From NCBI GenBank assembly GCA_963855995.1, contig OY979725.1, forward strand, positions 12,442,383 to 12,506,382: a stretch of 64,000 nucleotides of DNA, in the 5' to 3' direction. Shown here in pieces: positions 1 through 44,027 of this stretch (positions are counted from its first letter, which is position 1; each line of letters opens with the position of its first letter). The position numbers were made by a program, and so were the translations under genes. A model generated the notes under the pieces. That model did no database searches and had not been told where the DNA came from. It saw only the letters and a program-made list of their open reading frames with translations. This DNA is from Muricea muricata (taxonomy: Eukaryota; Cnidaria; Anthozoa; Malacalcyonacea; Plexauridae).

Positions 1-96
1 AACGAGATGAACAGATATTTGACATGGCAATAAACACACAGCAAACGATTGGACTCCTATCCTACTCGTACAGATATTTATATTTATATCTCTTAC

Positions 97-557
97 AATC
101 AACCACATGATGAGACCAACAACATACGAGGAAAACACCAACACGATAATAAACGTCCATGAATTTAGGATCAAGTTCATCACTCTCCCTGATTCGTTAA
201 ACGAGTTAAAGGAACTAACAATAAACGCTGCTCCAGGCGAATGAACCAGAGGAACGTAGGGAAATCCATTGCCGTATGTTGTCTTGTATTTTGTTCCATG
301 GATTGGAAAATGAAAGTCTATGTCTTCGCCCAAGTGTTGCCTTACTTCAATGATTCCTCGTTGTAATGATTTAGTTTTATTGCTTCCAACAAAGTTTATC
401 GCGGCTTTGTCACCGTATACACATTCACTGCAGCAGAATTTGATGGCGTGTTTAAGCACATCTGGGAATATTCCAACTGCAGTGTTATCTTCGTCTGTCG
501 TGTACGGTGTAAGTTGCCACCAGTTCGTTGTGAAAACTTTTTGACAGGTGCACGTTT
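97..557 (-). other. Ligand-binding lobe S1 and first membrane helix of paralog A channel
   Basis: The exon starts ETCTCQKVFTTNWW and carries VGIFPDVLKHAI, the counterpart of the SBP/iGluR S1 segment that follows the binding-site loop. EVRQHLGEDIDFHFPIHG then contains an arginine aligned with the conserved carboxylate-binding arginine of glutamate receptors (inferred alignment). VPLVHSPGAAFIV precedes a hydrophobic segment, SWTFIIVLVFSSYVVGLIMW, taken as M1. A donor GTAAGA follows directly. Reading on to the window edge gives open but unrelated sequence without a pore motif, so I end the exon at 97. Confidence 0.75.
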
Positions 558-3500: not shown

Positions 3501-6500
3501 TCATCTGAAGAAGTTAACAGATACATATAAAAAGAAGTTTAGAACCTACAACATTGAGAGGTTGACCTCCGTGGTCTTTTGTTTTCCTCTTTGGTTAGAA
3601 ACTCAACCATTCCTTATTCGCTATCGGCTCTCTTGTTACATATGGTTTTTGAGCAATGATTTTGACCGCTCGTTTGCAAATACGACGTATTTTGATAAAG
3701 TAATGCAATCAGTAAAAAACACTATTGGTAGTAACTGGTGCAAAAATATGCAAAAGCAAAATTTTGAAAGATTTGGGGCTGCTGAAGAATTAAACCCTAT
3801 CACAAAAACTTTGAGCTTTTCTAAATTAGTTAATCGAGCATGTGCTTGTCCTAATTCCTAACTGGGCAGCATTTAAGCTGTGCTTTTATAGTAACCTTTG
3901 AGTTTAGCACTCGGATATTATCATCTCTTCTCTTTAAGTTTACAAGGACATGTGTGTACCTGTGTTCCTCAGACGATACTTCACCGCGTATCCTTGTAAT
4001 ATTCCCAGATGGTTCTCTTCAGGAATGGCGGACCATTGTACAGAGATGCTTGTTGAACTCAAGTTGTGCGCAGATCGAATCCGTGGGGCTGCGTTCGGAG
4101 CTAAGGTGGAGGAAAACAAAAATTAACAAGAACGTAGTTTTTCTTACATCTTACATCCTAGATTCCTATCTAATCTAAACTTGTTGAGTAGTAGCCTTGA
4201 TTACAATGTAACACGCTATTCCGTCTGATTTCTACACGTGCGTTCATTTCAACCCTTGAGAGAAGAAGATAACTGGCGAGCCAGTGTGGTTCCCTACGGA
4301 AAAAAGTTCAGAAATGGAAATCATTTATTTACCCTCCATTTCAGTCCAAACAACTAAGGGCAAACTCGTTACGCCTTCTCCTCGTCTATTACGCGCCACA
4401 ACTCTGATCTTGTAAGGCTGGAATATTTGTAAATTCTTTATCTCTGCGTGGTAAGAGTTTGGGGGCAATATCGTCTTTGTGTACTCTGATGTATTGCTCT
4501 CGGCATGCAGTACGACAAAATTTGTGAGGTTTCCATTGGACTGCGATAGTGGAATGTCTTTCCATGCGACTTTGATGCTTCGTGAGCTTGTGTTATGCGC
4601 TGTGATGTTGTCGGGAGGTACAGAGGGAACTGATAAAAGTAAATGGATCATTCTGTTAGTATTGGTAATCGTAACATTAAGGTTTGAACGGTCCAATACA
4701 TGTTGATGTTCTTGTCTTACCATCAATACTTTTCATATCCATACCAATCACATCTAATTCTCCCAGTTTGTTTTTTAAAAATATTTCGTCCTGTAAGTCC
4801 ATCACGCCAGAATAGAGACGGTTGAAGAAATGCAGCTCAACCAAAGCAATAAGGCTTCCTTTCCTAGGTAGGAAAATTCTCAAAGTAAAAAAGGAACATT
4901 TTTTGAAAAGTCGTATTCCAATGATATGAGCTTACCAAAACTTTAAAACTTTCATTCTGCGCAAAGGAGATTTCTCGGCATAAAAGTCTCTCACCTTAAG
5001 ATAAATCGATTCGAAGTTGTAAAGTAACAGAAAGATCAATTTATTAAAGTAAAAACTAAAAACATACTTAGGCAATTCTTACATTTTTCAATATTTTCTT
5101 CTCAAGGTTCTGGTAGTACAGACTGTTAAAGTTTAACAACGAGTCCCTCCATTCTTCGGACGTGATTTTAATCGTTATTGTGAAAAGAATATCTGTAAAA
5201 GATACATAAAGCTATTCAGTTACGAAACAAGAGCGTTAAAACTTATATTCTTCAATTTGTTTAAATTACCTGGACATCTTTGGGGATTACATTCCTCGGA
5301 GTCGACCCCAAGCTCACCAGAAACCACCGTACATTCCCTCCCTCCGTACTGTGGAGGTGGGTTATCACATGCCCTGATCCTCACTCGCCTACCACTCTCG
5401 CACGTTTTCGAACACCCAGAGAACTTGGACCATTCGCTCCAACCACCATCAATGGGACATGGAAAAATATTACATGCCCGTATTTGCCTGGCCAGCCCCA
5501 GTCGGGCACATGTGCGCCCGCCGAATTTAGGGGCTGGGCTGTCACATTCCCGCGTACGTGTTTGATAGCCCTCCTCCCCACAACTTGTGCTACATTCTGT
5601 AAAGCTTTTCCAGGACCCATATGCACCATCGACCGGGCAATTTCGTAGAAAGCACGAACGCGTTTCGCTTTCAGGGCCCAGATGACTGCAATTTTGCCCG
5701 TTATGCATTGGCTTTGGGTCAGTACAATTTCGGGTACGAGTTTGAGTGCCATTGTCGCAAGTTGCGGAACATGGGGTGAATTTTGACCAGGCGGTGTAGT
5801 TCCCGTGGACAGGGCACGGGTGAGCGTTACAAACTACTTCGTCGAGACTTGGTCCGAGTCTCGCGCAGTCTCTCCCTCCGTGGGCAGGCGAGGGGTCAGT
5901 GCAATTTCTGCGACGATGTTTCGTTCCGTTTCCACAGGATTTGGTACAGACGCTAAAGTCTCCCCAATTTGAGTAACCTCCATCAACAGGACAGGGAAAG
6001 TCATTGCATATGTCCCACCTCCACATCGATTCCCCCGACACTTCCTCGCAACTCTTGCCCCCATGCTGGGGCGTGGGGTTTTCACATTCTCTCGTCCGAA
6101 AACGCTTACCCCTCGCACATGTTCGTGTGCAACCCGAGAACGGCGACCACTCGCCCCAACCTCCGTGTATTGGACACGGAAAATCATTACATACTTGAGT
6201 ATCATTTTCTGGACCGAATCTTGAACAGTCTAAACCGCCGTGTTGTGGTCTCGGGTTATTGCAGGTTCGGTTTCTTTCTTTGGTACCCCTTGCACAGCTC
6301 TTGGTACACTTTGTGAATTCACTCCAGGCAGAATATCCACCATTAATGGGACAGTAGTGGGTGTTGCATGGTCTAGTATCGTTGCTCAACCCCAAGTGGA
6401 AACAATCTCTCCCACCGTATTGTGGAGTGGGGCTGGTGCAGGACCGCACCCTTGTCTTTACCCCACCGCCACAGGATAAGGTACACTCAGAAAACGCAGA

Positions 6501-9500
6501 CCACTGAGTATACCCTCCGTGAATGGGACATGGATGTGTATTACAGCTGTCATTATCAATGCTTGGACCAATTATTGAGCAATCCCTGCCCCCGTGTTTT
6601 GGCGTGGGGCTATCGCAGGATCGATTCCGCGTCATGGTTCCATTTCCGCAACTTTTAGTACAAGTAGTAAACCCGCTCCATTCGGAGTAACCTCCGTGAA
6701 TGGGGCAAAAGTGCGTATTGCATCTCCTAGTTTCATCGGCTGCCCCCAAATACGAGCAATTACGCCCGGCGTGTTGTGGGGTGGGTTCTGTGCAAGTCCG
6801 CACTCTGGTTTTTTTGCCCCCTCCGCATGTGACAGAACATTCGGTAAAGTTAGACCATTGCGAATACCCGCCGTGAATTGGACAAGGAAATTCATTGCAC
6901 GCAAGAACTTCTAAAGACGGACCCAATCTCGAGCAATTCCTTCCGCCGTGAAGAGGTCTCGGCTTATCACAAGTTCTCGTTCTGAATTTCGTCCCATTTT
7001 GACAGCTTTTACTGCAGACGCTAAAATTCCCCCAAGCCGAGTACCCTCCGTGGACTGGACACGGATTGAGGTTACACACACGAATTTGTCGAGCTTGTCC
7101 TAATCCCGAACAATTTTTCCCGCCATGCATTGGCACAGGCTGGGTACATGTTCGTATACGAGCCGAGTACCCTCCGCCACAGGATTGGCTGCAATCGTTA
7201 AAATTACTCCACTCCGAATAACCGCCGTGTATTGGGCATTCACGATCAATGCATGACGTAATCTCTGTGGTGGATTCTTGTCGGCTGCAGTTTCTCCCTC
7301 CGTGGGCCGGGCGGGGGTCCGTGCAGGTTCTGTACCGAGCGTGGATACCGGTGCCGCATGTAACTGAACAAGGTGTGAATTCCGACCATTGGCTGTATTT
7401 ACCGTGAACTATAATGAAAAAGAGAAAGATAACAGTTCACATCAATTCTGGTACGTATTTTTGAAAGCATTAAAAGTTCGAGCGAGTGTTGGTGAGAGCT
7501 TCTCAAAGTTACCATGGTATCTCTTCAACTATCCATGATGTTACCGATAAAACCTGCTAAAGCTAGCTCTTTGAATTAGCTCAAAATTAAGTGCATAAGA
7601 GTTGGCAGTCAAACTCGATCGAAGAGTGGCAACTGTATATCTTTGAGACTTCAATCTATCTTTGTTGGGAGTGAAACTTATACAAATCTCTATTCTGTGC
7701 TACTCTCTTCCATCATCTTACCACGTCGCGCATAAAACACGTGACATATTTCTTCCTTCATCAATATGCCGTCCCAGACCCCCAACTCGTCCATCTCCAC
7801 TTCACCGCTATTGGTCAATTCGTAATCTGCGCCAACGATTAAACGTTCCGGCGGTCCGTAGCGATGCGCAGCGCGGTCAAACGAGACACCGCCCGATACA
7901 TAATCAGCTTCTGAACAATTGAAAAAGATTTTCAGCTCTCTAACTTCGGAATTCCACTGTAAGCCCACGTGAGTCCATGTCTTAAAATTCCAATTTGTGT
8001 CCAAGAACCTCCGAACAGTCCGTGGGAAAATTTCGTGCCATTCAAACCCAGTTGTAGAAAAACGTAATTGTCCTTTCTGGATTTCGAGGTAAAACCCTCT
8101 GGCCTCCTTTTGTTTAACAGCATTCAGCAGTACTGCGTTCCGTTGTGGTGTCGCTTCCATTCGTAGCCAGAACAGGATGGTAAATCCATGCTCGCATTGG
8201 AAAGGTTTTGGAATGCACGAGGAATCCAACGAGCCAAGGTCCAGCCAAGATAAGGAAGAGTTAGTGTAGCTCGAGAGCTTGACGCCTTGCTCTAACATCC
8301 CCGAGACGTACTCCAACGTTTGATTTTTAATCTCTTGCTGGTCTTGCCCGTCGAACGACCAATAGTACCTGGCATGTCTGTAGTAAGGATCTAGGAGCAG
8401 CGAGTATTTATTAAAGCCGAAGTATTAATTAAAAATCAAGCCCGAGTGGAACGAGGATGTAAGATGATGAGAATACGGAATACGTAAATTTGTTATTGCA
8501 AAGCTCTAGATCTTGATCGGCTTGGATCTTTGTTGGATGAAGATCCGAGCTTGCGAATTGAAAAGCTTTGCAAGAACAGATTTACATGACGATTCCTCAA
8601 AGCTAAACTTTTTGAGCTGGTCATCCGATTGTGAACGAGAAACACCATTTTTAAACATGTATAGATACGCGTACCTGGTCCAAGCGAGATTGCTTCTACT
8701 GTCTCCTGCGAAGACACATTGAAATCGTAAGCAAAATGAACGAATAAAATGTGGCAAAACCATTGAAATGAATTATTATCAAGTGTTCATGATTAATTGA
8801 GGATTGAGTTGTATTGTCATTTTGAATTTTTTATTGGCAAGCAAAAAATTCACGTTTACGTAAATTGTGACAAAACCCTGTCTGATATTGCATGTCGAAG
8901 CTTTAATACGATTAATATTACACGTATTTTCTAACTGAATGCGTTTACAATGTATATTTTAGAAACATTCAGTCCGGTGAAACAGTCTCTTTAAGAAATC
9001 ACTAAGCCGTTTCCAAAATCATTACAGTTAATTGCGTTTAAGATTTTAAAGTATTTACAAGACGAAAATCAGTTTTAAAATTACACTAATATTTGTAAAC
9101 AAGCTAGACGCCCTACGTTTGGCAGTTCAACAACAGGTATAGCAGCTTGTTATGTATGCTAAACTGCAAAGTGGTTTTCTTAATAAATCTTACTCTTTAA
9201 AATACTAAATAATGAAAACTCGTGAAATTAACGGCGAAATCAAGCCATCATTATTGAGCATAACCACAATATTTAGTATTTTTATCTGCTATTTAAAAAT
9301 ACATTTTAATTAATTGAGGATCAAACCAATTTTCAACACAAACTCTATATAGTATGTGCCGCATTTAGCCTTTATACATTTGCCCGCATTCCGCTCTTTG
9401 CAGCTAAATCACAACGTATTTTTACACATTTCTCCGGCAAAACTTTGAAGGAGATACACGGAGACTGCCTTACGTTTAGCAACATGCAATGCCGGTTAAA

Positions 9501-29105: not shown

Positions 29106-29740
29106 ATGAACACCCTCCTCTTTGCCCTCGGTATATTTTTATCGGTAAGCAATTTTTTGTTTATTTAAAATTAACGATGGATGAATAAGTAGTGCATCTT
29201 CATTCTTCGGTTTCGTTGTATTTCACAAAATATTGATACTATTTGGGAAAAAGTTTTAGAATGCGATTGGATCACAAAGAGTTTGTACGTAACTCGTATC
29301 GTCTCTTTGCCGATTTCTTTCAGTACTGAGCAGATTTCAAAAAACAGCGTGAATTAGCACTTTCCTGCATAATAATTACTTTCCTGGTAAATTGTTAAAG
29401 GCGTTTATTCCTAGCTGATAATTTTGTCTTTTATTTTGGGCTGACACAACTTTGTAATTCTGTAGTTATCGGGATGAACCGACACAGTTATTTTATGCGT
29501 TACAAATAATGTTATTCTCTGCTGCCGATAATCTTTTCTCAGTTTGTCATGGTGATCAACTTTAAAACCAAGCATTATTTTATTGCTGTGCTATCAATTT
29601 TACTCTTGTCGACTGGAATTTTTCGCAGAATATTTCCATGCTTATATCCTGAATGTGATTTTGCTTCATGATTGAATATGTGTTTAAACCTTTTCTTCAG
29701 ATTTCTTTGACTGTCGCCAGAAGTCTTCGGAATAACAATG
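29106..29740 (+). other. Signal-peptide exons of paralog B
   Basis: ATG at 29106 opens MNTLLFALGIFLS, followed by donor GTAAGC at 29145. Acceptor CAG ends at 29700 and the 40-bp exon 29701-29740 adds ISLTVARSLRNNN, ending in phase 1, which is the phase required by the LamG exon at 32257. Together they form a hydrophobic leader with a likely cleavage near the ARS sequence. I chose this start because the phases fit both neighbours and because paralog A has the same two-small-exon arrangement. Confidence 0.7.
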
Positions 29741-32700
29741 GTGAGTGGCATGATAGGAAAGGGCAGGGTATAGACACAGTTATATAGCCTGTTTTTTTCC
29801 TGAAGAGGTCAGGGTGTATGTGTTGAGATTAGCCCCTATACTGCCCCTTCGGTCGCTCCTACATTCCGCGCTCAGAAATCAGAGTCATAATATGGCTAAA
29901 ATCGCCGGAAAGTTAAAAAAAATCGACTAGCCGAATCTAAAAGAACTTAGATTTTTTTTTAAAACATCTAAATAGCTGACAATTATTCCCCATTGTTTTT
30001 CGTTTATCGCGCAGTGCTCAATAATATCTTATCCGATTCATTTAAAATGCAAATAAGGTTATAATTCGTTTAGTTTCAGGAGGCAAGAATTCGGTTAGAT
30101 AGCACTCGAAAGGCCAGCAAAAACCTTATAACAAAACAAGTATTTGTTATTACAAGTTTCTCGTCGAATTGTGTCGTAATTTTTTGAAGTGTCCAATTTG
30201 TTTCGCAGCGGTATTTTTATTGAATGGAACACTTGTAAATTTTCGGTTTATTGTTAAAATTGCGGTTAACCTTTCCTTTTTTATAACAGCGTACTTGCTT
30301 GTCGAGATATCTCGGAATTGGAATAATATGTGCAGAATATCTTCCACAATAAGCTGCACTGCTGCAGTTGTTTACGATAAAAATATAAGAAACTACAGGG
30401 GGATAGCTTTCTAGGAAATCCCCCTGGCTGAATGTATTATTGCGGCATGAAAAATGGATTAGATTTTTATTATTTTCGCGTTTGTCGTCGAATCGTGTTT
30501 GCCGAAATTAAAATGACATGGTGAACATGAATTTTTTACAACTATTTATAACAATTTAAATTAAATTGAATATTCACCTCAACTGGAAGCACATTCTCAC
30601 AGTCTAAAAGCTTGGCAAGTAATTTGTAATGGCAGCTTGAAAGTCAACAGGAACACTGTTTAAAACTGCGCAAACACAAAAATAAACAATGGCAATGCAT
30701 AATTAAACCATTCTACTAAATCTCTCCAAAACACAGCTTTAACGACAAGGTTCTTACTGCAAAGCATACCACACGAAATGTTTTAAACGAAAAGTTTTAT
30801 ACGGATTCTCTGGGAAACGATTGAAGCTCTTTTGTAAAGTTTTTGAATTTGGCAATATACACAGACAATGTTTTCGTCGTGTTTCTACCTAAACAGCTGT
30901 ATCCTCATGCCACGTCAACTTGGACCAATTTTTTTCTCGGCAGGAGTGCCTTGTAACTGGCCGCAAGCTTATCCCATCACTGCAGTAGTCAAAAATATTT
31001 CATTATTCATATCATGCTCTGTTCCATGTACATTCCCTAATAGACTTGCAACACTATTTAACGAGATTTCCGTGAAACATGGACACCGACGTGGAACATT
31101 CTAATACAGACAATTGCATTTTCCATGGCTTTGAAAAAAATACCACATAAGCCGCAACGAGACCCAATTGTTTACGTTATTTTTATGTAACCTGGGTATT
31201 GTAGACAAAATGTATTTTTGTTTTGTCTACAATGTTTCGTTCGTCTACCCTGCGCATGCAATGTGTACTATAAACAGCAAGAAATAAACAAGTCTCTTGT
31301 ACGCTTTGCACTCTCCGGCCCGACACGCAGCTAGACTATCTAACAGCATACAGACTTCATGAAAGTCCCTAGTTATAATAAGTTGTTTGTGTAAGTAAGA
31401 CTTCAATTCAACTCGGTATTTGCAGACTTGCTTAAAGTTGCTTAGACAAGTTGCGTTAAAAACTCCTGACAATCAACTTGACAACTTGCAGGAAACTTGT
31501 TTCCATTAAACCAGATAAGCAAGCGATGCGAGCACATTTAGGTGCAGCTAGTTCAATCAAGGTTGTTCTTTCAAAAGCGTAAACTGTAAACTATAAGCAC
31601 GCCAGGGATGACGGAGTATTGCTTATTTTTACCTCTAATAACCTTTAAAACTGCATCGAAGGCGCTTAGGAAACTCACGACGGCAAATTTACTTGCTACA
31701 AAGGTAATTTCCTAAGCATCAGGGCCTAAATAAACAATAATGCATCGTCCCTTGCGCCTAGTAGTTCACAGTTTACGCAATTGCTGTTGAAATAGCTGTA
31801 TACAAAATTAGATGCTATTTTAAGGTACTTGTAGGATTATCAATAGACTGGTTGCAGGTAAACGTGAGTTGAAACTAAGCTTTTTGTGAAATTTTCACTA
31901 TGAAAATCTCCAGAACGAAACTGCTCAATATAAACGCAAAGTGACTCACTGACTGTCACTCGGTTCAAACGTTTTCCATCAACAGAAATCTTAGAACTAT
32001 CAGTAAGTTTATTGATGTTGTGCCGGGACCCTATTAGCATATGTTCAGTTTTACTAAAAATATATTTATCCACAAGCTTGATGCAAGCATGTTTTCGTGA
32101 ATTCTTGATATACCAGGCTGTTTGCAAGCATGTTTTCTTCCCCGAGTCTACATCGATACTAAGCAGGTTGAAGAATATGCCTGAACGCGGTTGAAGTCGA
32201 GCTTCTATGATCTTTGGAATGGCGGACGACCCAATTCTTGTTGTAAATTTTCATAGGCGTACATCTCCCATGGTACCACGATGCTGTCAGCTACTGGGAC
32301 TTCGACGAAAGCATTCGCGATTTGAAAGGATCCCGAGTTTCAGAAATCACTGGAGACTATACCTTTGTTCCTGGACCTAAAGGCAGCGCGATAGAATTTG
32401 TGGAAAAAGAGAATTCGAGCTCGGCATCGTATCTGACTTTGGGAAATTTCAGTGATACTTGTCTGCCTGATCCAGGACGGTGCAAATCTGGATTTACCAT
32501 CAGTTTTTGGTTGAATTTGAGGAAGGTCCTCCACGATGGGGTCTTATTTCAACTGGGCTTGAGCAGAAGAGGTCGTGGGATAACTATAACTACGAGACAC
32601 AAAGGTGGAGGCATATCTCTTCAATTTTATGGGAATACACCAAAGAGAATGTACGTCATCGAAGCAGATCTGTCATCGCACATTTGGCATCACGTTGCAC

Positions 32701-35700
32701 TTACTTGGAATGTAACGGCTAACTCAAAGATGGCCTTGTTTGTCAACTGTACCGGTGGTGGTTTTACTTTTAAAAAAAAGATACGCGATGACAAAAAGAA
32801 AGAAGATCGCTGGATGGTTTTGGGCGCGAATCATGGGGGGAAGAAGTCTATTCCAATTGCGGTTGATGACTTTGCCATTTGGTTTGAGACTTTGAGACAG
32901 GAAAGATTTTGCGAGATGATTAATCAAAGAAGAGGTGAGTTGAATACGTTGTGCGACTTTGATTAGTTATATTCAAACGAGGTAACAGTTCTAAACAGGT
33001 GCAATGTAACCAACCTCCCACTGACCCTGTGTTTTACTAGAAGAAAGCCCCCAAGGCAATATTCGAAAACGCAGAGACTAAACCTAATTCACTAAAATTC
33101 AGAGTAAAAATATGTTGAGAATCAAGCAATCTGTGCCTGAAGTGAATTACTCAAATACACGACCTAGCTGCATTTTTTATTTTACTACTCAATTTTTGAC
33201 TACTCGACGCTTCAGTGTAACGTTTTTCAAAGATGTATATACAAGACCACTTAATGAACTTCACTTCTCTCATTGTATACCATGCTCTTTCATTGTTTCC
33301 AATTGCTTATGATCCGTAGGTCATTTGGCAAAACTCATTACAGCTATTGCAGCTTATATGTCTTTTGGGGGTTTTTGTAGTTCACGGAAATTACTCGTCA
33401 TGGTCAGAATTTTCCTCTTGTTCTGTGACGTGTGGAGGTGGAACAAAAACTAGAACAAGAAAATGCAACAGTCCCGCGCCTGATTATGGAGGAAGAAACT
33501 GCAGCATCTTGGGTCCATCGTCAGAAACAGTGGAGTGTAATGCAGAGGGTAAATGTCCCATCAAAGGGGGTTACACCCTTTGGTCTGTGTTTTCAAAATG
33601 TTCTGCCTCATGTGGGGGTGGGGGTACAAAATACAGAACCCGAAATTGTACCAACCCTATACCTCAATATGGCGGTCAAGATTGTTCTGAAATTGGTCCA
33701 GCGATTCAGACAAAGTCATGTAACAAACAACCATGTCCAATTACAGGGGGTTACAGCTCTTGGTCTAATTTCTCAGAATGTTCTGTTTTATGTGGTGAAG
33801 GGGGTACACGATCTAGAACCAGAAATTGTACTAACCCAAAACCTCAATATGATGGGCAGAACTGTTCTAAGATAGGACCAGCAATTGAGACAGAGCAATG
33901 TAACAATCAACCATGTCCTATTCCAGGAGGTTATACCTTTTGGTCTAACTTCTCAGAATGTTCTGTCTCGTGTGGTGAAGGGGGTGCACGCTATAGAACC
34001 AGAAATTGTACTAATCCTAAACCTCAGCATGGTGGGCAGAACTGTTCCAAGATAGGACCAGCAATTGAGACAGAGCAATGTAACAATCAACCATGTCCTA
34101 TTCCAGGAGGTTATACCTCTTGGTCTAACTTCTCAGAATGTTCTGTCTCGTGTGGTGAAGGGGGTGCACGCTATAGAACCAGAAATTGTACTAATCCTAA
34201 ACCTCAATATGGTGGGCAGAATTGCTCTAAAATTGGACCATCTTCAGATATTCAAGCCTGCAACCCGATTCCTTGTCCTATACATGGTAACTATTCTAAA
34301 TGGTCAGCGTTTAGCTCCTGTACTACTTCGTGTGGACATGGTTATAGATTTCGAAATAGGACGTGCACAAATCCAGCACCAAAACACGGTGGTCGAAATT
34401 GCTCGGTGTACGGATCAGATGTTGAGGTCGAAGCTTGTCATCTGCAGAAATGTCCTGTTCACGGCGGCTTTAGTGAATGGTCAAATTTTTCAGCCTGTTC
34501 TCAGAGTTGTGGCAATTCTACGAAAACCCGGACCCGGATATGTAATAACCCAACTCCGAGTAACGGAGGTCGAGATTGCAAGACCCTGGGACTAAGTTCG
34601 GACACAGTTCCTTGCCAGACGCCGCCGTGTCCAATCCACGGAAATTACTCGGTTTGGTCGGAATTTTCACCTTGCTTTAAAACTTGTGGAAGTAGCTTTA
34701 AATTTCGACGACGATATTGCACGAATCCCGAGCCTCGCTTTGGAGGAAGAAATTGCTCGGGTTTAGATTTTGAAGAGGTCCCATGCTATCAAACCCCGTG
34801 CCCCATACATGGGAATTTCTCCGAATGGTCAGAATTTTCTAAGTGCTCGCATACTTGTGGAAACGGTTTCAGGAAACGGTTTAGAAATTGTACTGATCCG
34901 GCACCAATGCATGGCGGGAGCAATTGTTCGTCGCTTGGATCCAACATTCAAATTGTAAACTGTAACGAACGGCCTTGCCCTGTCGACGGCAACTATTCTG
35001 CGTGGTCGACATTCAGTGCATGCAGTCGAACGTGTGGAAATGGAACCCAGTTTCGAACTAGAGATTGCATCGAGCCATTGCCTCGTTTTGGTGGGCGTGA
35101 CTGCTCCACTCTCGGGCCCAGTAACGACACTCGCGTCTGCAACATGCGACCATGTCCGATTCACGGGAAATTCTCTGAGTGGTCTGAATTTTCCGGCTGT
35201 AGCGAAACCTGCGGGTTAGGAATCAGGATTCGCTATCGATATTGCACAAATCCCGAACCTCGTTACGGCGGGAATAATTGTACTGAGCTTGGCCCTACGA
35301 GTGACGTCGTTTCCTGTCACGTGAGATCATGTCCCATTCACGGAAACTACAGCACGTGGTCATCGTTTGGACCGTGTAGCAAAAGTTGTGATAACGGAAC
35401 GCAAGTTAGAAGAAGGTTTTGTACAAGTCCATCGCCTCGTTTCAATGGAAGAGATTGTTCTTCTTTGGGATCCAATGTGGACAGGAGACATTGCCAAACT
35501 CAACGATGCCCAGGTAATTGTGACAGTGTGAGTTAGGTAGGTACACTTTATTTAAGCACGCTAACCGCTTCTATTACAATTTGATTTCCAAGAGGGCGTG
35601 TACTTAGAGCGTCCACAGATACCAACTTTAAGCATGCCCGGTAAGCATGGGTTATTTGGAGGGACAGTGGGATAAAGAGCACCAGTCATGGAACGAATAG

Positions 35701-38700
35701 TGCAAAATACCTTTAAGGCTTTTTTAGAGATAATGAGGCATTTTATATTTTCTTGCGCTAATTTTAAATTTTAAAGTTTCCAGTCACTTTGTGTTGTCTT
35801 TTCAAACAATTCATAGATGCTCTGTTGTTTTCAATTGCTCTACTAATAGTTCTTCAATTTTCTTTTTTTACATCAGATATTGATTTCACTGTAAAATTTA
35901 AGCTGAATCATATCACTTGGACTGGCGAACTTTTGGACAACTCTAGCAATCAGTACCAGAATTTAAGCAAGGAGCTGAAAACGGCTGTAAGTACATACTC
36001 GTATCGGAACCTGTGTGTAGATTGGTTAGTTAATTTTACGGAAGATTTTATCATTTAGATATTCAGACTTCATAGAATCCAGGCTATAAAAGAGATAAAA
36101 ATCATGGAATATAGGTAAATGTCAAAGTTTTTCTATTAGGTTTACTCCTTGGACCTTGCAGAGAACAGCAAATGAATTTAGTAGATTTATTATGCAAAAA
36201 ATATGATTTGTTTGTTACCATCAACCAATGATGAAGTGAATTGAAATACAATATGGACACATCACATCACATGGAGTCGATGAAACCGTCCTCGCTTTGC
36301 TTTAAGAGTGCTCTGGTAGTGTGAATATCTTTACGATACGAAGGACTCCAATTTGGAACACAGTTTGTGTGTACACATGAGTTAGCATCGTAGCTTTTGG
36401 CTTTTACAATGAAAAAAGTTCACTTGTAGAGCAATGTATAGTATTATTTATCTATTTCAGTCCAGGCAGTGTTGTGGCCACTATGGAAGTGATATACTAC
36501 TCTCGCGATTTTCCTGGTGCAATAGCTCTTAACGATGCTTTTTACATTGACCGAAGAATTGGTCCGCATGAGGTTACACCATTGTTCTTCACTTCAACAG
36601 ACGGTAAGCTGTTACTAATTGTAGTCACCAGGACTTAATCAGGGCGTACGCCTCCCTCCCCTTTGCTGCCGTTGTCATTTTTACCTCGTCATTGACACTG
36701 ACATGGCTATACCACAATGCCCGATTCAAAACACTCGGGTATCATAATTATTAGCTTCCACCGAATTCCCCCCCCCCCCCTCCATCCCTCCATTTGAAAG
36801 TTCTGGCTACGTCTCTGTTAATCGGAGAAGTGGCGGAGGCATCGAAATACAAGGAAGAGTAGTTACGTTTCGGTTTTACCGTCAGGTAAGACTACGCCAC
36901 CAACGAAAAACAGTTGCTAAAGCATTGCTGAAGGTTCAGTAAATCTAAACGGCCTGTATCGATTTTTCTTACAGTTCCAACAAACCAGGTTAAAAATTTA
37001 ACCGCCTTCAACCGTAGCTCCACAAGTCTTGAGCTTCATTGGAGCCCCTTGTCTAGTCAGCCAGGTCAGGGCGCTATCGTGGGATACTCCGTCCTGTACG
37101 AGAAGTTACTCTATCCTAGTCGTGTAAACTCAATCAAGACAAACGTTGCAGTGTTTTTAAATACAACCAGAGGCACGCTGAGTCCGTTGCATAAGTATAG
37201 CTGGTATAAAATCCGAATCGCGGCCATGAATGAACGTGGGACTGGAGTTCCCAGTGATCCTTTATTCGTCCTTACCGATGAGGATGGTGAGTGTTATGGC
37301 ATATTATGATAACATAGAGGAAAAATGAATCTGTTTCACAAATTCTTCTACTAAAATCATATCACTACATATTCACGAATCTGTGATTAATTCTCTGTAT
37401 CTTCCATTTCTTTCACAGTACCAAATGCTTCTCCGTATCTGAAACCTGCTGGTTTTAACACGAGCTCCACATCTTTGAATATTAGCTGGAAAGACATAGC
37501 ACAAGCCGATATCAATGGAGTTCTTCGCGCCTATGCCGTCTTCTACAAACCTCGCTCGACTCAAGGGACCTATCGGAACTTAACAGTGCCCCCTGATATT
37601 GTGTCTGTTCGTTTAACTGGTCTCAGAAAGTACACAGAATACGATTTGCGAGTTGCTGGTGTTACATCGAAGGGAACTGGAGGCTTGTCAGAAAAGAGTC
37701 TTGTTTTTACGGATGAAGACGGTAGGTAAAATTTACTGAATTTGATATTTTGAAGTTGTAAAGTTAGATTCCTGGCGGGTGATCCATTGTTTATGAATTT
37801 TCCCTACTGTTCCTGGCTCAAATTTTGATATGGAAAAATTATCCTAGTGTTAACTTTGTTGTAACATTCATCCTTCAAACCGCTTTTAACGCCTCAAAAT
37901 CTGTATATTCAAAACATTTTCTTTCTATAGTGCCTAGTGCATCACCCGTGTTCCACTCGTACCGCAACATAAGCTCAACGTCAATTCAGCTTCAGTGGCA
38001 CAAGGTCCTTAGCAACCACCAAAATGGTGTCATCCTTGGTTACCGCATATATTACCGACCACGCCTTCGGAACAATTCATGGAACGTGACTGACGTCGTT
38101 GGAGAAAGTCGAACACGTTTGACTATCAAAAATTTAACGATGTTTATTGGATATTATGTGCGGATATCTGCGTTCACAAGCAAAGGTGAAGGAAACATTA
38201 GCGAGAGTATTTTGGTTTCAACAGACGAAGATGGTAAGGAGTCTTTAATATATCTTGGCATTATTTACTCAGGCGAAAATGATGCTTGTGGTGTTACTTT
38301 GATTATGGATGATGATGACGGTTCGAATATGTGTTCGAATTACCCTGTGTGGATATAGACTTAGAGTAACACCACAAGCACCTTTTTCACCTAAAGGTCC
38401 TGTCACATGGTGCAATTTTTCTTGAAACTTGCAACGCAATTCTACTCTTAAGAGATGTAAATTTGTGACAAATGTTGGTATGTTAAAAATATGTTGGAAA
38501 ACTGTGATGGAAACTTGTATTTGCCAATTTTACTTCTCCCAAGAGTATAGAATTTCATTGCAAGTTGCAAGAAAAATTGCACCGTGTGACAGGGCCCTAA
38601 GACACAATAAAAATCATGAATACTTTCCTTTAATTTAGTTCCTTGCTCGGCACCGTTCATTCTTGAGAATGGAACAACTAATTCGACGTCAGTTTGGCTA

Positions 38701-41700
38701 AAATGGAGTCATCTACCACCTCGTTGTCACCAGGGAATTTTGCTTGGGTACAGAGTTTCCTACAAAACAAAACACGATGAATTCCTCAACGCAATTGTTT
38801 CACCGACGAGTAACGAAGTTACACTTGGAAATCTTTGGAAATACTATGTGTATGATATAAAAGTGGCTGGATTCACCGCAAAAGGTCCCGGACCATTCTC
38901 TAAAATCCTTGAAATTCGAACGATGGAAGATGGTGAGACAATTTGCATGCCAAACAAAGTTTAAATTTAAGCTTTGAATTTTGGGAATTCAAGTGACACC
39001 GATCCCAATTACACAGCAAAATTACTTAAGTTGCAACACATCTGTTGATATCTTGCAACAGACTTGTTATCAAGACGACATCAGGACGCGTTTGCATGGC
39101 TTGCGACTGCTTGTTGACGGCAAGTTGTCAACAAACTTGTTGCAAGTCGACTGTCAAAACTTGTTATCCACAGGCTCCTTCCTACAAGTTGTTTCGACAA
39201 GTCATAGCAAGTGTGCAAATCACAATGAGTTGCGTCAGGCCTGATTTTAACAGCAACTTGATGGAATTGACAAGTGGAATGCAACTTGTTGACATGCTGG
39301 ATCAAGCTGGGAAAATTGACAACTTTAAACGAGTCTGTGGCGTTTTACGCCGTGCTAACAATAATTTTGTTTCTTTTCTCTCTCAGTTCCTAGCTCATGG
39401 CCGGAAAACATCCAGGCACGCAATACCAGTTCCACTAGCATTCAGGTCAGCTGGGGACTGATTCCTCAATCTCAAATACATGGCAAATTGAAAGGCTACC
39501 GTGTCTTTCTCAAGAGAGCAGGCGAACCTGAATGGGAAAGGGTAATAAATTACACCGATTGTTATTTGGGCTGCGAGATTAATAATCTTTGGAAGTTCAC
39601 AAAATATCTTTTCCGAGTTGTTGGCCATACTTCCGTTGGCGCCGGAGTAGCAAGTCCTGAAATTTCTGTTTGGACGGATGAGGATGGTAGGTGGAGAAAA
39701 AATTGTTGCAACCTTGTGTGATCAACCATGTTGGTACAATTACCTTCGGATGGTCATCAAGGTTAAAAACATAGGATCGTTATAAGTGCCTGAAAGGATC
39801 TGCGCCGAATTCAACGTTCCGGGCAAACACCCTTGATCGGGAAGTTAATGGCGACTATAATACCTTCCCGTGAATGGGCTTTCGCACGAGACGTCGAATT
39901 TGTGATTATCGTTTCAGGTTTCTAAAAGATGTTTTTATGGTGTTTTGACTGAACTGCCGACATTGGTAACGTTAAATCGAGATTATCAACGGAGTTTTGA
40001 CTTTTTAGTGCCAAGCCACCCACCTGAACAATTCAAGACAATCAACGAATCATCTTCGACCTCAATCCCTCTGACTTGGGAACCAATAAGCGATCCATTT
40101 TACATTCACGGCATTTTACTTGGCTATAAACTTGAGTTTCAAATGACGCACGTGGCCGGGAGAAGGCTGGATAAAGACGCGGATATTGTGATTCGCACCA
40201 CTCCTCCAGGCACGCTCTCGTATGTTTTGACAGATCTGGTCATCTACGCTGTTTATAAAATAAAGATACGGGCATTTACTGTGAAAGGAGACGGTGTAGC
40301 TCGTGAGATTTCGGCAGGTAATTTAAGTGCATAGTGTATTTTACTTTAGTTCTTGAGGTGTGAAATCTGAGACTGAGAAAACTGAGAAAGTGCCGGAGAT
40401 ATTAAACCTTGGGTGTATATGTAAAAGTCCAATGTTAATAAGAACTATGGCCGAAATACCCTTAAGCAGTGTGTTACATTATATTCAAAGGCGTCGATCC
40501 TCGGGGGGGGGGAACGCGGATTGTCACCCTTGATAGTATTACATACGGTTTTTTTCTAGAAACATGCAAGTGTGCGCCAGTTTACAAAACAAATTGGTGG
40601 AGCAACCCTCCATATATTTACAAGAACAGAAGCAAAATTTCAGGAATTTTCCCTCTAATATTACCAAAGATGGTATCGAAATGTTGCGGATTTTGTCACG
40701 AACACAATGTGACAGCCACGCATTTCGACGGCCACGTGCTAGCCGCTTCAAGCTATCACAAGTCTGGGGTCTCGGACTTCCGGTCCCATGTGGGTGATTC
40801 AGCCGAGCTCCATTTTCCAATGTACGGTCAGGTCCATCAAGAGAAGTACTACAAGCGGTACGAATTTATACCCCTAGTCGAATCCCCTGGCGTGATTTTT
40901 CTCGTATTGGACGATGATATCCATCTATCGTCAATGCTGATGTTGTATACAATCGCAGATACTTTACCCATCGTCCTTCTCATGGTCTCCTCCATTTCTA
41001 TGATTGGTATCGTTACATGGTTTGTGGAAAATTCGAGCAATTATAACCAATTTCCACCGTCCTTTCTTCATGGTGTCTTTCATGGAATATGGTGGTCCAT
41101 GGTTTCCATGACCACCATTGGGTAATATAAACATTGTGCATTGAATAGCTCAATACTAGAATAACTAAACTAGGTTTTTTTACCGGTTTGCTCTATTAGT
41201 TTGAAATTGTTCTTCCTAGAAGTAGTGTCTTAATGGTCCAGTGTTACTTCAGAAGGAAACCTAAACTAAACTAACTTTATTTTTACTGAATGGCTCTATC
41301 AGCTCTAAACTATTATTCCTAGAAATCCAGTAAGGGTCATCACTAATAGATCCAGTGTTACTAAGGACGGAAACCTAAACTAAACTAACTTCATTACCGC
41401 TAGATGGCTCTATCAGTTCTAAACTGTTCTTCCTAGAGGTCTAGTATGCATCGTGTCTTATTGATCCAGTGTTACTACAGGAGGAAACCCAAACTAAACT
41501 GACTTTATTCATACTGGATAGCTGTATCAGTTCTAAAGTGTTCTTTCTAGAGGTCCAGTATGGATCTTCTCTCATTGATTCAGTGTTGATCTACAGGAAA
41601 CCTAAATTAAACTAACTCTATTTCCTCCATATCAATAATAGTTATGGGGACAAATATCCACGCAGTATCGCTGGTCGAATTATTGGAATATGTTGGATAT

Positions 41701-43434
41701 TAACAGGTTCTATCATAATGGCCTTGTATATCTCTGTTGTGACTTCACACATCACGACCGAAGTGGCAGCAGAAAAAACGAAATTGTATGGCACCAAGGT
41801 ACGTTATCACTGGTGTAAAATCTTGATCACAATTAGCCTTTCTTACGATGAAAATTAATCTGTCTGTCTGCTTTCATGAAAGATTCTCGAACATGCGAAC
41901 ATTACATTCTAGCTCCTGCCATATCTCGTGATGCAACATTCTGACAATTCTTCACGCTTTACCGCAAGTTGATTTGCTTTTGGACATTACATGTGTGTGT
42001 AATTGTTTTCCTTTTTAGATAGCTGTTATTCAGAATTCTTCAGAACACCAACTGGCAGTGAGGAAAAATGCCCGACCTGATTTAGGTATTGTCTATACCA
42101 TGTCTAGACTGCAAGATATTTGACTATAAGTTAACATGCCTATACAGGCTTATACAGTATACAGCCCAGTAGACGGTGTTAGGTATTTTACCTAAAATGC
42201 TTTCGTAGTCCATCACGTTTTAAGTCCTTTTTTTTTTCAGAGCATCCTTACAACAACCTGTATGACGTATACAACGCCTTAAACGAACGTTATGTAAAAG
42301 GAGCTCTCGTTGACGCGTATACTCTTGGTAGTCGGAAAGATCTATTTGATAAAATCGGTGTTCGCATCGGTAAAATCTATGATTACTCATCCGCATACGG
42401 TGTGGTCTTGGCGGGTGAGGCCAAGAAGCTACAGAAATGTTTTCGCGGGTATGTCGGTGAAAATAGAAAAGATATTTTCAAGATTATCGAAGATCACGTC
42501 CATAGGATCGAGGTGAGTAGCTTAATCACTTGAATATTACTTCCCTAGCTTGAAGGAGTATCGGTGACTCAGTTGTTACGAACGCGACATTTATATAAAA
42601 AGGAGTGCCTTTTTTGTGCATTATATGTGTCGACTTGGAAAAGTTTTGGAACATTGACAGGGTTGTCAAGAACATTTGTAATTGCTTCGTCGAAATTGTC
42701 GATACTTTCCATTCAGCTAGGATTGTATACATCATCCTATTTTGCCCAGAGGAACCCTGTATTGCCGTTTGGTAAAAAAATCATAGCCCATAGACCCATA
42801 TCTAAAGACTTTTTTTATAGTTCAGTGAATCAAATTTCCTTTCTCACTTTTTTAGCAAAGTGACGTGACCACGTCGGTGAAGCGCGCAAAGTCTTTGATT
42901 GATCCCACGTTCATTGTTTATCGATATTGTCTTTTCATTTCTGCTGTTCTTTTATGCGTCGCTTTTCTGTTGGGAGTCTTGTACGAGTTCTTCAAGAAGC
43001 CATTACAACGAACTTTTTGTCGCACAAAGTTCAAGACAGGTAGGTATTCGCGCTGAGAGGCTTCAATATGCAAGCATTTTGCCACTAACTTACATTTTTT
43101 TTTAGATATATCATCCACCAAGAAAGCTAACCTTTTGGCGATCCGATCTTTGAAATGTGAGATGCAAGCAACTATGCTCGAGTTAAAAGCAAAATTGAAA
43201 AGATTAAAGGACAGACATCGACGCGAGCTGAACAAGTTGGTTAAGTTGAAAAAATCGGTGAGGCGCCGGAGGCGTACAAGTGAAGATAGTCTGATTTTCT
43301 CTGCTTCCGTAGTAAGATATGAAGAACCGTACGAGTCGCCATTATTAAATCTGAGGAAACTCATGGATAACGGCAGTAAGTTAGAAAGCAACTCACAAAA
43401 TGGCACTAGGCGAGAAGAGGAAACTATCGTGTGA
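29106..43434 (+). CDS. Giant adhesion-type GluR0-like potassium channel receptor, paralog B (complete)
   Basis: Nineteen coding exons join without a frame break into 2196 residues: 29106-29144, 29701-29740, 32257-32934, 33381-35513, 35877-35986, 36059-36114, 36461-36603, 36975-37286, 37419-37721, 37931-38233, 38639-38932, 39387-39686, 40009-40317, 40560-41121, 41642-41798, 42019-42085, 42241-42512, 42856-43039 and 43106-43434. Approximate residue map: signal peptide 1-20, LamG 27-252, 12 TSRs 253-963, SEA 964-1066, six FN3 1067-1673, S1 1674-1806, M1 1807-1829, pore 1844-1864, M3 1873-1897, S2 1914-2045, M4 2050-2075, cytoplasmic tail to 2196. The filter TTIGYGD is rebuilt across the 41121/41642 splice. 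The topology is that of ionotropic glutamate receptors, but with a potassium-channel filter, as in bacterial GluR0 and rotifer AvGluR1. The large ectodomain suggests an adhesion or matrix sensor coupled to potassium flux (inference). The upstream gap of 2.5 kb in front of the LamG exon is intron. Confidence 0.88.
31577..31778. mobile_element. MITE in the paralog B intron before the LamG exon
   Basis: The ends GCGTAAACTGTAAACTATAA and TAGTTCACAGTTTACGC are inverted, and the match extends through AGGGATGACG against CGTCCCTT with a few changes. It is 202 bp and lacks coding capacity. Confidence 0.75.
32257..32934 (+). other. LamG/concanavalin-like exon of paralog B
   Basis: This 678-bp phase 1-1 exon encodes about 226 residues. 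VSYWDFDES at the start, GFTISFWLNL, HIWHHVALTWN, ALFVNCTG and DDFAIWFETL are ordered as in laminin-G-like jelly rolls. Four N-glycosylation sequons are visible. It is the most N-terminal folded domain and so likely the most distal part of the ectodomain (inference). Confidence 0.78.
33381..35513 (+). other. Twelve tandem thrombospondin type-1 repeats in one exon (paralog B)
   Basis: The exon starts right after TTTTTGTAG and ends at CAG|GTAATT. It holds 12 modules beginning GNYSSWSEF, GGYTLWSVF, GGYSSWSNF, GGYTFWSNF, GGYTSWSNF, GNYSKWSAF, GGFSEWSNF, GNYSVWSEF, GNFSEWSEF, GNYSAWSTF, GKFSEWSEF and GNYSTWSSF. Modules 3, 4 and 5 follow each other at exactly 180 bp, and 4 and 5 are nearly identical at DNA level, which shows recent tandem duplication or gene conversion inside the exon. 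Each module keeps six cysteines and several N-x-[ST] sites. Confidence 0.94.
35877..36603 (+). other. SEA domain of paralog B (three exons)
   Basis: Exons 35877-35986, 36059-36114 and 36461-36603 join in phases 1-0, 0-2 and 2-1. The product begins DIDFTVKFKLNHITWTGELL, continues through YQNLSKELKTA, and reaches PGSVVATMEVIYYS. In SEA domains the cleavage site is G/SVVV; GSVVA keeps the Gly-Ser pair and most of the hydrophobic stretch. Autoproteolysis would leave the TSR part bound non-covalently to the FN3-channel part (inference). The middle exon is short and rests mainly on phase and on the paralog A match. Confidence 0.78.
36975..40317 (+). other. Six FN3 domains of paralog B, one per exon
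   Basis: Exons 36975-37286, 37419-37721, 37931-38233, 38639-38932, 39387-39686 and 40009-40317 each encode one FN3 domain of about 100 residues and all are phase 1-1. Shared features are VPS/VPN at the start, SSTS before the B strand, W in the core, a GY or AY motif, a final Y-x-[IV]-x-[VI]-x-[AG] strand, and T-D-E-D at the exon end in most. The last domain lacks TDED and ends VAREISAG where it joins the channel. Introns between them hold MITE-like repeats. Confidence 0.9.
38392..38600. mobile_element. Palindromic MITE in an FN3 intron of paralog B
   Basis: GTCCTGTCACATGGTGCAAT at the left is the inverse of ATTGCACCGTGTGACAGGGC at the right. The arms run about 57 bp each, through TTGCAACTTGCAA-type sequence to AAGAGTA. 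It lies between FN3-3 and FN3-4. Confidence 0.8.
40560..43039 (+). other. Glutamate-receptor-like channel module with K+ selectivity filter
   Basis: Lobe S1 (40560 onward) has NWWSNPPYIY, SGIFPLILPKM and DFRSHVGDSAELHFP, which follow the order of SBP/iGluR lobe 1; the Arg in DFRS is the candidate amino-acid carboxylate anchor. M1 is about TLPIVLLMVSSISMIGIVTW. The pore helix GIWWSMVSMTTIG joins YGDKYP at 41642 to give TTIGYGD. M3 is GICWILTGSIIMALYISVV. S2 starts KIAVIQNSSEHQLAV, and ALVDAYTLG carries the candidate ligand-binding acid. M4 is about CLFISAVLLCVAFLLGVLYEF. Ligand identity cannot be told from sequence. Confidence 0.85.
41165..41625. repeat. Tandem repeat of about 120 bp next to the pore intron acceptor
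   Basis: Roughly four diverged copies carry AAACTAAACTAACTTTATT, GGCTCTATCAGTTCTAAAC, TCCTAGAG and GATCCAGTGTTACT. The array fills the intron that splits the GYG filter codons (41122-41641). Confidence 0.85.
43106..43434 (+). other. Basic cytoplasmic tail of paralog B
   Basis: The last coding exon gives about 109 residues. It opens with a lysine/arginine-rich, heptad-like stretch (MQATMLELKAKLKRLKDRHR) and a KSVRRRRR cluster, suggesting a membrane-proximal coiled coil. The end, REEETIV, finishes in a short hydrophobic triplet (T-I-V) compatible with a class I PDZ ligand (x-[ST]-x-hydrophobic). The PDZ idea is inference. The stop is at 43432-43434. Confidence 0.7.
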
Positions 43435-44027
43435 GCGCAAGTCTGAGAAAACGTGTGTGTGGTTGAATTGAGACGAGATGTGAACATCTGGAGTTTCCAA
43501 AAAATCCCATTTACCTTGCAATGGATGTGAAGTCGAGTGAAAGTTGTCCCACAAATTCAACTTTGGAATAACCTTTAAGCTGAAGTTAAACGTCCTTCAA
43601 ATTAAGCTTTGAAAGCTGTTTAGCGAACATTGTACCCATCGTTGTCATCATCATCATCGTTCACCATCATCATTGATAATCATGATTATGATTATCATTA
43701 TCATTGACAGCACCATCACCGTGATTATCATAATCATCTTTGATCATCATCATCATCATCATCATCATGTAATCATAGATCATCGCCATTTTCATTGTTA
43801 CTGAAAATATTTTTATTAAAACTGCTATTATTAAACTGTTCTAAATCTATTCTTAACGAAATACAAAGTTCTTGAATGTAACTGGCTTCCCACATCCCTT
43901 CCCGCATCCCACTTTTATACGCAGCAAAAAATGAACTATTTGTTCAGGGTTGATGAAAATAGGATTGAACAATGTTCTGCTGTCCACATGCGACCTGATT
44001 ACGGGTTAATTTGGGCTCAGCAATGCT

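Follow-up and report, generated by a model that had tools for sequence, protein, structure and literature searches.

GluR0 is a glutamate-activated, potassium-selective bacterial receptor with two transmembrane domains, according to the accessible part of a recent account (PMC12332018), and the available portions of a 2010 survey describe glutamate receptors with a potassium filter ('Group 1') as confined to bacteria (PMC2950845). The animal case named in two papers from 2025 is AvGluR1 of the rotifer Adineta vaga, which in the accessible excerpts of those papers combines a potassium filter with the eukaryotic layout and is activated by amino acids (PMC12332018, PMC12226733). Here we consider a 64,000-nucleotide stretch of the genome of the octocoral Muricea muricata (hereafter the window; contig OY979725.1, G000:C10:12442383-12506382) and a gene at window positions 29106-43434 on the plus strand that joins an adhesion arm to a channel with a potassium-type filter. 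On balance it is probably a real, conserved gene encoding an animal potassium channel of the GluR0 kind, gated by an extracellular two-lobed domain, in which the adhesion arm replaces the amino-terminal domain (ATD) of ionotropic glutamate receptors (iGluRs).

The encoded protein shares with GluR0 (Slr1257) and the prokaryotic Group 1 receptors a core of two lobes (a likely S1, and S2), membrane helices (M) and a pore loop (P) in the order S1-M1-P-M2-S2, with a filter of the TTVGYGD kind, a pattern in the M1-P linker and the S2 lobe. It differs from GluR0 in an added helix M4, in a gap at the column of the ligand-binding arginine, in a diverged S1 with conserved cysteines, in an adhesion arm of about 1650 residues before the channel and in being an animal gene with introns. 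An adhesion arm is not mentioned in the available passages that describe AvGluR1 in the two citing papers (PMC12332018, PMC12226733). Canonical animal iGluRs share with the coral family to which the gene belongs the order S1-M1-P-M3-S2-M4, matches to the Lig_chan model and, for some members, an FTAN-like M3, whereas the coral family has a potassium filter and no match to Lig_chan-Glu_bd at its known loci, and the window gene has no ATD. Adhesion G protein-coupled receptors (GPCRs) and SEA mucins likewise carry outer adhesion modules and a SEA domain with a site of the GSVVV or GSIVA type, named as autoproteolytic in the accessible part of one study (PMC6954182), whereas the membrane part of the coral protein is an ion channel. 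Anthozoan proteins likewise contain arrays of thrombospondin type 1 repeats (TSRs), and the available main text of a survey of these cnidarian proteins contains none of the terms 'ion channel', 'fibronectin' and 'SEA domain' (PMC5446238). No receptor joining an adhesion arm to a potassium filter was found among the titles and abstract openings listed from the open-licence PMC literature (at most 20 papers to a search), eukaryote protein databases and subscription papers being outside that search, and to this extent the claim of a preliminary description of the locus, that no described receptor has such an order of domains, holds up. Other cnidarians may carry such proteins, and databases may already list them.

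Gene structure and a head-to-head paralogue

Reconstruction exon by exon yields 19 exons (Table 1) that read as a single open frame of 2196 residues from an ATG at 29106 to a stop at 43434, with GT/AG intron borders at every junction. The preliminary description had proposed both this chain of 19 exons in one frame and a TTIGYGD filter split across a splice site, and both are borne out: the filter occupies residues 1858-1864, and a phase-2 intron at 41122-41641 interrupts the codon of its first glycine. A model of 18 exons leaves the frame broken, and a 56-nt exon within the SEA domain restores it, while the signal-peptide exons 1 and 2 are the part of the gene model of which we are least sure. 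The order of domains is signal peptide, laminin G (LamG), 12 TSRs, SEA, six fibronectin type III (FN3) domains, S1-M1-P(TTIGYGD)-M3-S2-M4 and a basic tail. No part of the gene matches the Pfam model of the ATD (receptor-family ligand-binding region), with matches to LamG, TSP_1, SEA and fn3 models instead. A hydropathy scan places strong hydrophobic peaks at residues 4-22 (signal), 1811-1829, 1874-1892 and 2050-2068, and weaker ones at 1784-1802 (end of S1) and 1885-1903 (M3). The FN3 domains lie one to an exon, all six entered in phase 1, and 53 N-glycosylation sequons occur up to residue 1790. Part of the tail resembles a coiled coil when judged by eye.

An arrangement of two neighbouring genes might be suspected here, in which a secreted or membrane-bound LamG-TSR-SEA-FN3 adhesion protein is followed, in phase by chance, by a separate channel gene; the gene model is drawn from genomic sequence alone, and FN3 exons, being phase 1-1 modules, could be joined to any partner. 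Against this stands paralogue A, which lies head-to-head with the window gene at a distance of about 20 kb. Its model starts at the LamG exon (signal-peptide exons were not sought) and, in spliced alignment, follows the same LamG-TSR-SEA-FN3-channel order with identical phases at all shared introns. Its 2041-residue frame contains no stop (the alignment script penalises stops), and 812 of the 1996 residues aligned with residues 27-2075 of the window gene are identical (41 per cent); by module the identities are 59/209 in LamG, 356/706 in the TSRs, 27/103 in SEA, 212/589 in FN3 and 148/398 in the channel. The paralogue model has two further introns: one interrupts its second FN3 domain, and the other separates M1 from the pore helix, two elements that a single 562-nt exon encodes in the window gene. 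A frame ending in SLV is the probable tail of paralogue A, and both this ending and the ETIV of the window gene are compatible with a class I PDZ ligand, which is a hint only.

Because paralogue A repeats both the order and the intron phases at 41 per cent identity, the order of domains is conserved rather than an artefact of exon joining, and frames that stay intact over so long a divergence are not what the mistaken joining of two genes would be expected to give. FN3 pieces also lie upstream and on the same strand in other members of the family (11 in F, six each in P and N, one in C; none in 6 kb upstream of B), five members having been examined over 6.0-9.0 kb. In the hydropathy scan the FN3 part lacks a membrane anchor and the channel part lacks a signal of its own. 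With the fusion replicated in paralogue A, the two-gene arrangement is rejected as very improbable. The view that one gene carries a potassium-type filter in an iGluR-like S1-M1-P-M3-S2-M4 layout is supported by the frame, the Pfam matches and paralogue A, and the replacement of the ATD by a LamG-TSR-SEA-FN3 ectodomain, also put forward in the preliminary description, finds support in Pfam and in the same order in the paralogue. Ectodomains differ within the family: no LamG, TSR or SEA match was obtained in F, P, N, C or B, and the window gene and paralogue A are the only family members known with these domains. Relative B lies beyond paralogue A, at C10:12430038-12434088.

Table 1. Exons of the window gene and position of its paralogue, in window coordinates.
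Feature	Position	Strand	Evidence
Exon 1: start codon, first half of signal peptide	29106-29144	+	ATG, donor gt, hydrophobic residues 4-22; weakest part of model
Exon 2: end of signal peptide	29701-29740	+	AG/GT borders, frame
Exon 3: laminin G	32257-32934	+	Laminin_G_3, E 1.9e-12
Exon 4: 12 TSRs	33381-35513	+	TSP_1, 12 stretches, E 2.9e-112; 12 starts counted
Exon 5: SEA, first part	35877-35986	+	SEA, E 8.8e-5, 23 bits against cut-off of 26.4
Exon 6: SEA, middle part	36059-36114	+	Required by frame; 59-nt counterpart in paralogue A
Exon 7: SEA, last part, with GSVVA autoproteolysis-like site	36461-36603	+	Aligned to GSIVA of ADGRF1 (PDB), weak (E 0.19)
Exon 8: FN3 domain 1	36975-37286	+	fn3, six stretches across exons 8-13, E 1.4e-66
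Exon 9: FN3 domain 2	37419-37721	+	fn3 match
Exon 10: FN3 domain 3	37931-38233	+	fn3 match
Exon 11: FN3 domain 4	38639-38932	+	fn3 match
Exon 12: FN3 domain 5	39387-39686	+	fn3 match
Exon 13: FN3 domain 6	40009-40317	+	fn3 match
Exon 14: S1, helix M1, pore helix, filter to TTI	40560-41121	+	hhalign against 68 bacterial GluR0-type proteins over S1-S2; S1 alone not significant
Exon 15: remainder of filter (GYGD), helix M3	41642-41798	+	Ion_trans_2 (E 3.4e-13) and Lig_chan (E 1.3e-7), spanning exons 14-15
Exon 16: start of S2 lobe	42019-42085	+	S2 profile against PDB; hhalign E 2.4e-10
Exon 17: S2 lobe with Asp1960 at conserved column	42241-42512	+	Asp in 14/14 coral and 67/68 bacterial rows
Exon 18: end of S2, helix M4	42856-43039	+	Hydrophobic residues 2050-2068
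Exon 19: basic cytoplasmic tail, C-terminus ETIV	43106-43434	+	33 K+R against 16 D+E in last 128 residues
Paralogue A, head-to-head with window gene	1-8388	-	LamG (7722-8388) to S1-M1 exon (97-557); remainder past left edge of window

A 212-residue open frame runs antisense to exons 18-19 (window 42918-43556, minus strand) and is probably due to chance.

Kinship of the pore and its flanking lobes

Prokaryote genomes were scanned with an alignment of 14 coral channels (the window gene and 13 relatives), and at least 591 stretches matched, at least 574 of which are relatives; of the best 80 kept, 68 loci were retained for a profile by length and filter position. Many bacterial matches continue into S2, that of locus L084 covering positions 17-344 of the query, and this locus, the only bacterial relative scanned for domains, carries SBP_bac_3, Ion_trans_2 and Lig_chan. 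Comparison of the 14 coral with the 68 bacterial rows in hhalign aligns 286 columns at a probability of 100, beginning at PPY/PPF, close to where S1 starts, and reaching as far as S2 extends. The M1-P linker pattern of GluR0-type proteins (G..W..E...N...F......G...G.WW) is present in the coral rows too: its G, W, F, G, G and W columns are kept in all 14, the E column holds E in 11 and D in three, and N is retained in 13. The pore and S2 are accordingly kin to those of bacterial GluR0-type channels, and the kinship to GluR0 suggested in the preliminary description is upheld; the label 'GluR0-like' is nevertheless preferred to membership of the type because the coral protein has the further helix M4 (2050-2068) and GluR0-type receptors have two transmembrane segments. 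Among the bacterial GluR0-type frames, L102, L104 and L119 are 734, 587 and 550 residues long and have long N-terminal extensions, with filters 381-565 residues in.

The S2 lobe aligns with bacterial S2 when compared alone (hhalign probability 96.8; Table 1). With the pore excised, the best of 15 matches in the PDB is an ancestral amino-acid binding protein (E 1.5e-5), and the next are two distinct GluR0 sequences of Synechocystis (E 0.039) and a GluR0 homologue (E 0.056) from a bacterium of, presumably, the genus Nostoc, with five more bacterial binding proteins at E 0.51-1.9. These matches to binding proteins and GluR0 sit at positions 109-230, which cover S2 and the last part of S1.

Several observations weigh against the reading of the gene as a GluR0-kind receptor. 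S1 alone does not reach significance against bacterial S1 (hhalign E 0.066, probability 0.8), although it falls in register, and of the two crosswise controls coral S1 against bacterial S2 gives E 0.53, while coral S2 against bacterial S1 gives E 6.1e-5 (probability 65, 36 columns), so that parts of the two lobes resemble one another. Just one of the 15 PDB matches is significant, and six are to unrelated proteins (four to Far1, E 0.1-0.12, in S1, and two to farnesyl-diphosphate synthase). Pfam reports no binding-domain model for S1+S2 in the 14 members, and NCBIfam yields weak matches only, including one to a substrate-binding protein (E 0.065) in one of the 14. The M3 gate motif is degenerate in the window gene (ALYISVVTSHIT) and clearer in relatives; the canonical iGluR M3, SYTANLAAF, is absent from it, with ALYISVVTSHITT there and SLFTANVTAVLTT-like motifs in relatives. 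The SEA domain of the window gene falls below the Pfam cut-off, and its match in the PDB is weak (Table 1). The channel could also be a non-conducting subunit or one that works only in heteromers, and the case for a receptor is built throughout on the comparison of genomic sequences.

Since S2 scores alone and S1 aligns only within the whole module, S2 is demonstrated while the S1 half of the binding domain is likely to be present in the window gene, by position and not by score. The earlier proposal that binding lobes flank the pore on both sides therefore stands for S2, whereas an independent match for S1 was not obtained. Of the profile searches suggested with it, those for Ion_trans_2, Lig_chan, TSP_1, fn3 and laminin G succeeded, SEA stayed below threshold, and the binding-domain models found nothing in S1+S2.

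The best PDB matches of the whole channel likewise tell against a GluR0-kind receptor: they are pores of voltage-gated potassium (Kv) channels, both by sequence (E 4e-10) and by profile (E 9.7e-14; best 60 of each), and in a 50-row tree with 28 bacterial rows the Kv rows included join the coral clade, if weakly (89/44, long branches). It might be supposed from this that the gene encodes a Kv-type pore, the right side up, to which adhesion domains were added and which has no true binding domain. However, a single strong helix precedes the pore loop in the hydropathy scan, where the voltage sensor S1-S4 of the Kv type is absent, the M1-P pattern is that of GluR0-type proteins, and the alignment to these proteins continues through S2, a lobe not known from Kv channels. 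A plain Kv channel is rejected on the M1-P pattern and S2, and the supposition is very improbable; judged by these features of sequence, the channel is neither Kv nor a canonical animal iGluR.

Ligand site, adhesion arm and proposed mechanism

An arginine and an aspartate hold the alpha-carboxyl and alpha-amino groups of amino acids. The bacterial arginine (T..R motif, 65 of 68 rows) falls in a gap in all 14 coral rows, which argues against a plain amino-acid receptor, although a shifted arginine is possible in single coral rows because the alignment is weak around it. The aspartate column is kept (Table 1), and S1-S2 seems to have lost the amino-acid-binding arginine and retained the acid. 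Lig_chan-Glu_bd, the model of the glutamate/glycine-binding S1, is matched by none of the 14 members, and its 15 exon matches in the genome include none at known family loci. Given the arginine gap and the lack of a Lig_chan-Glu_bd match in the family, the ligand is expected to be something other than a plain amino acid, if there is a ligand at all, and a canonical amino-acid iGluR is rejected on the same evidence.

These observations also bear on a contact receptor without ligand opening, in which S1-S2 would be a relic hinge, with tension, or the shedding of the arm at the SEA domain, driving the gate. The arginine gap, the strong divergence of S1 and the length of an arm with an autoproteolysis-like SEA site all fit such a receptor, but the aspartate is present in every coral row, the 14 members have a nearly invariant YG motif late in S2, and dN/dS is 0.16 (dN 0.063, dS 0.393) in one pair, H/Lg, over S1, pore and S2 together, which points to a kept function, though not necessarily to a ligand. 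Purifying selection acts between these two close members; of the other five pairs, two, with dS above 2, give dN/dS of 0.136 and 0.142, and the remaining three are saturated. We consider a relic hinge rather unlikely, and gating by the two-lobed domain is the reading retained here.

The SEA domain of paralogue A clears the Pfam cut-off (30.6 bits, E 4e-7). That of the window gene contains YSPGSVVATMEV, with its GSVVA site where paralogue A has GSLIA, and the G/S site in the window gene is autoproteolysis-like. Because both resemble the site type named for autoproteolytic SEA domains (PMC6954182), a breakaway arm, shed through self-cleavage of SEA, is plausible. The SEA domain used as a query found no match besides the window gene itself, and the 23 places in the genome with a Pfam SEA match include none at known family loci, where a SEA domain split between exons would escape detection.

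From the order of domains and the alignments we infer tetrameric assembly, orientation, potassium selectivity, gating, SEA cleavage and a cellular role as follows. Four subunits would form an inverted potassium-selective pore (M1-P-M3) with an animal-type M4, the binding domain lying outside and the pore loop entering from the inside, as in iGluRs. The extracellular clamshell of S1 and S2 would open or close this pore, while the arm of six FN3 domains, SEA, twelve TSRs and a terminal laminin G, standing in place of the iGluR ATD, may anchor the channel to the matrix or to a neighbouring cell. A self-cut of SEA at G/S could allow the outer arm to be shed on pulling, and S1-S2 might either answer a ligand that is not an amino acid or couple tension in the arm to the gate. 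Opening would let potassium flow out and so quiet the cell. The best reading of the sequence is an inhibitory potassium channel whose gate would answer to contact or to a ligand other than an amino acid. What the preliminary description observed at the locus is confirmed, and its interpretation is supported in part: the single gene, the layout, the kinship to GluR0 and the ectodomain are upheld, and a matrix- or contact-sensing, ligand-gated potassium channel is a prediction.

The gene family, its origin and its significance

The gene is not a lone oddity: it has a neighbour with the same ectodomain and belongs to a family. When the genome (453,007,491 bases, 74 contigs) is searched with two family members, the tool's counts being lower bounds, the pore exon finds a match at about 33 places, made up of 31 exon matches, the window gene and a further locus, O; some of these places may be broken, and four weaker matches (one on C14, two on C6, one on C1) are not counted. 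Family-like exon matches fall on contigs C1, C3, C4, C6, C9, C10 and C16, with Kv-like matches elsewhere. The channel module is complete in 13 of 18 further stretches tried, which with the window gene makes the set of 14 members, 29-36 per cent identical to the window gene; D1, D2, E, N1 and N2 are excluded from it as incomplete exon sets; D1 and D2 may belong to a single gene, as may N1 and N2. All 14 keep the potassium filter, as T[VI]GYGD in 13 and as TVGFGD in one (J), and all 14 match each of Ion_trans_2, Ion_trans and Lig_chan (E up to 1). The excluded rows N1 and D2 also show TTVGYGD, and further pore or M3 exons on C16, C9, C3 and C1 read TTVG or YGD. The M3 exons of several relatives carry SLFTANVTAVLTT, SLFTANTTSIIT or similar, motifs that come near SYTANLAAF, the form in the iGluRs of this genome.

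Five loci on C16, C1 and C3 (L057, L058, L061, L062 and L067) have an M3 that reads SLFTAN, between the bacterial SFTA and the animal SYTANLAAF, and keep the YGD half of the filter; such members would be useful for dating the filter change. Members E and D2 have near-identical S2-M4 segments (C10:10858545-10861775 and 10883819-10887073) 25 kb apart, a recent duplication.

Bacterial contamination is rejected, since introns are present and the gene lies within a contig of 13.9 Mb. In a 41-row tree (14 coral, 24 bacterial and three iGluR rows) the coral rows form one group (100/98), and a grouping of the coral rows with the iGluRs is not rejected (approximately unbiased test, p 0.464). Both transfer from bacteria and descent with the animal iGluRs are therefore possible, as is loss of the potassium filter in other animals.

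Elsewhere in the genome, a second cox1-like stretch with one TAA at C1:38414782-38416095 is perhaps a nuclear copy of mitochondrial DNA. The mitochondrial contig C74 has a COX1 match on one strand, frames interpreted as cox2, atp8 and atp6 on the opposite strand, and a MutS_V match (E 2.3e-32); mitochondrial MutS and such a gene order are marks of octocorals, and the contig thus agrees with an octocoral source.

An animal family of about 33 places bears on how glutamate receptors arose from potassium channels, and it offers native animal proteins in which a fusion of binding domain and potassium pore can be recorded. The adhesion arm leads to a testable proposal, direct signalling from contact or force to inhibition in an animal whose nervous system is simple, and at the SEA site of the window gene the change of a single residue would serve as a test. 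It is a tentative proposal, and one still short of probable, that this octocoral has an expanded family of inverted, potassium-selective GluR0-like receptors of which at least two are contact or force receptors, with an adhesion arm of more than 1600 residues, a self-cleaving SEA domain and an inhibitory pore. If it is true, such receptors would be the ion-channel counterpart of adhesion GPCRs, and a cell would be silenced directly when contact is made or lost.

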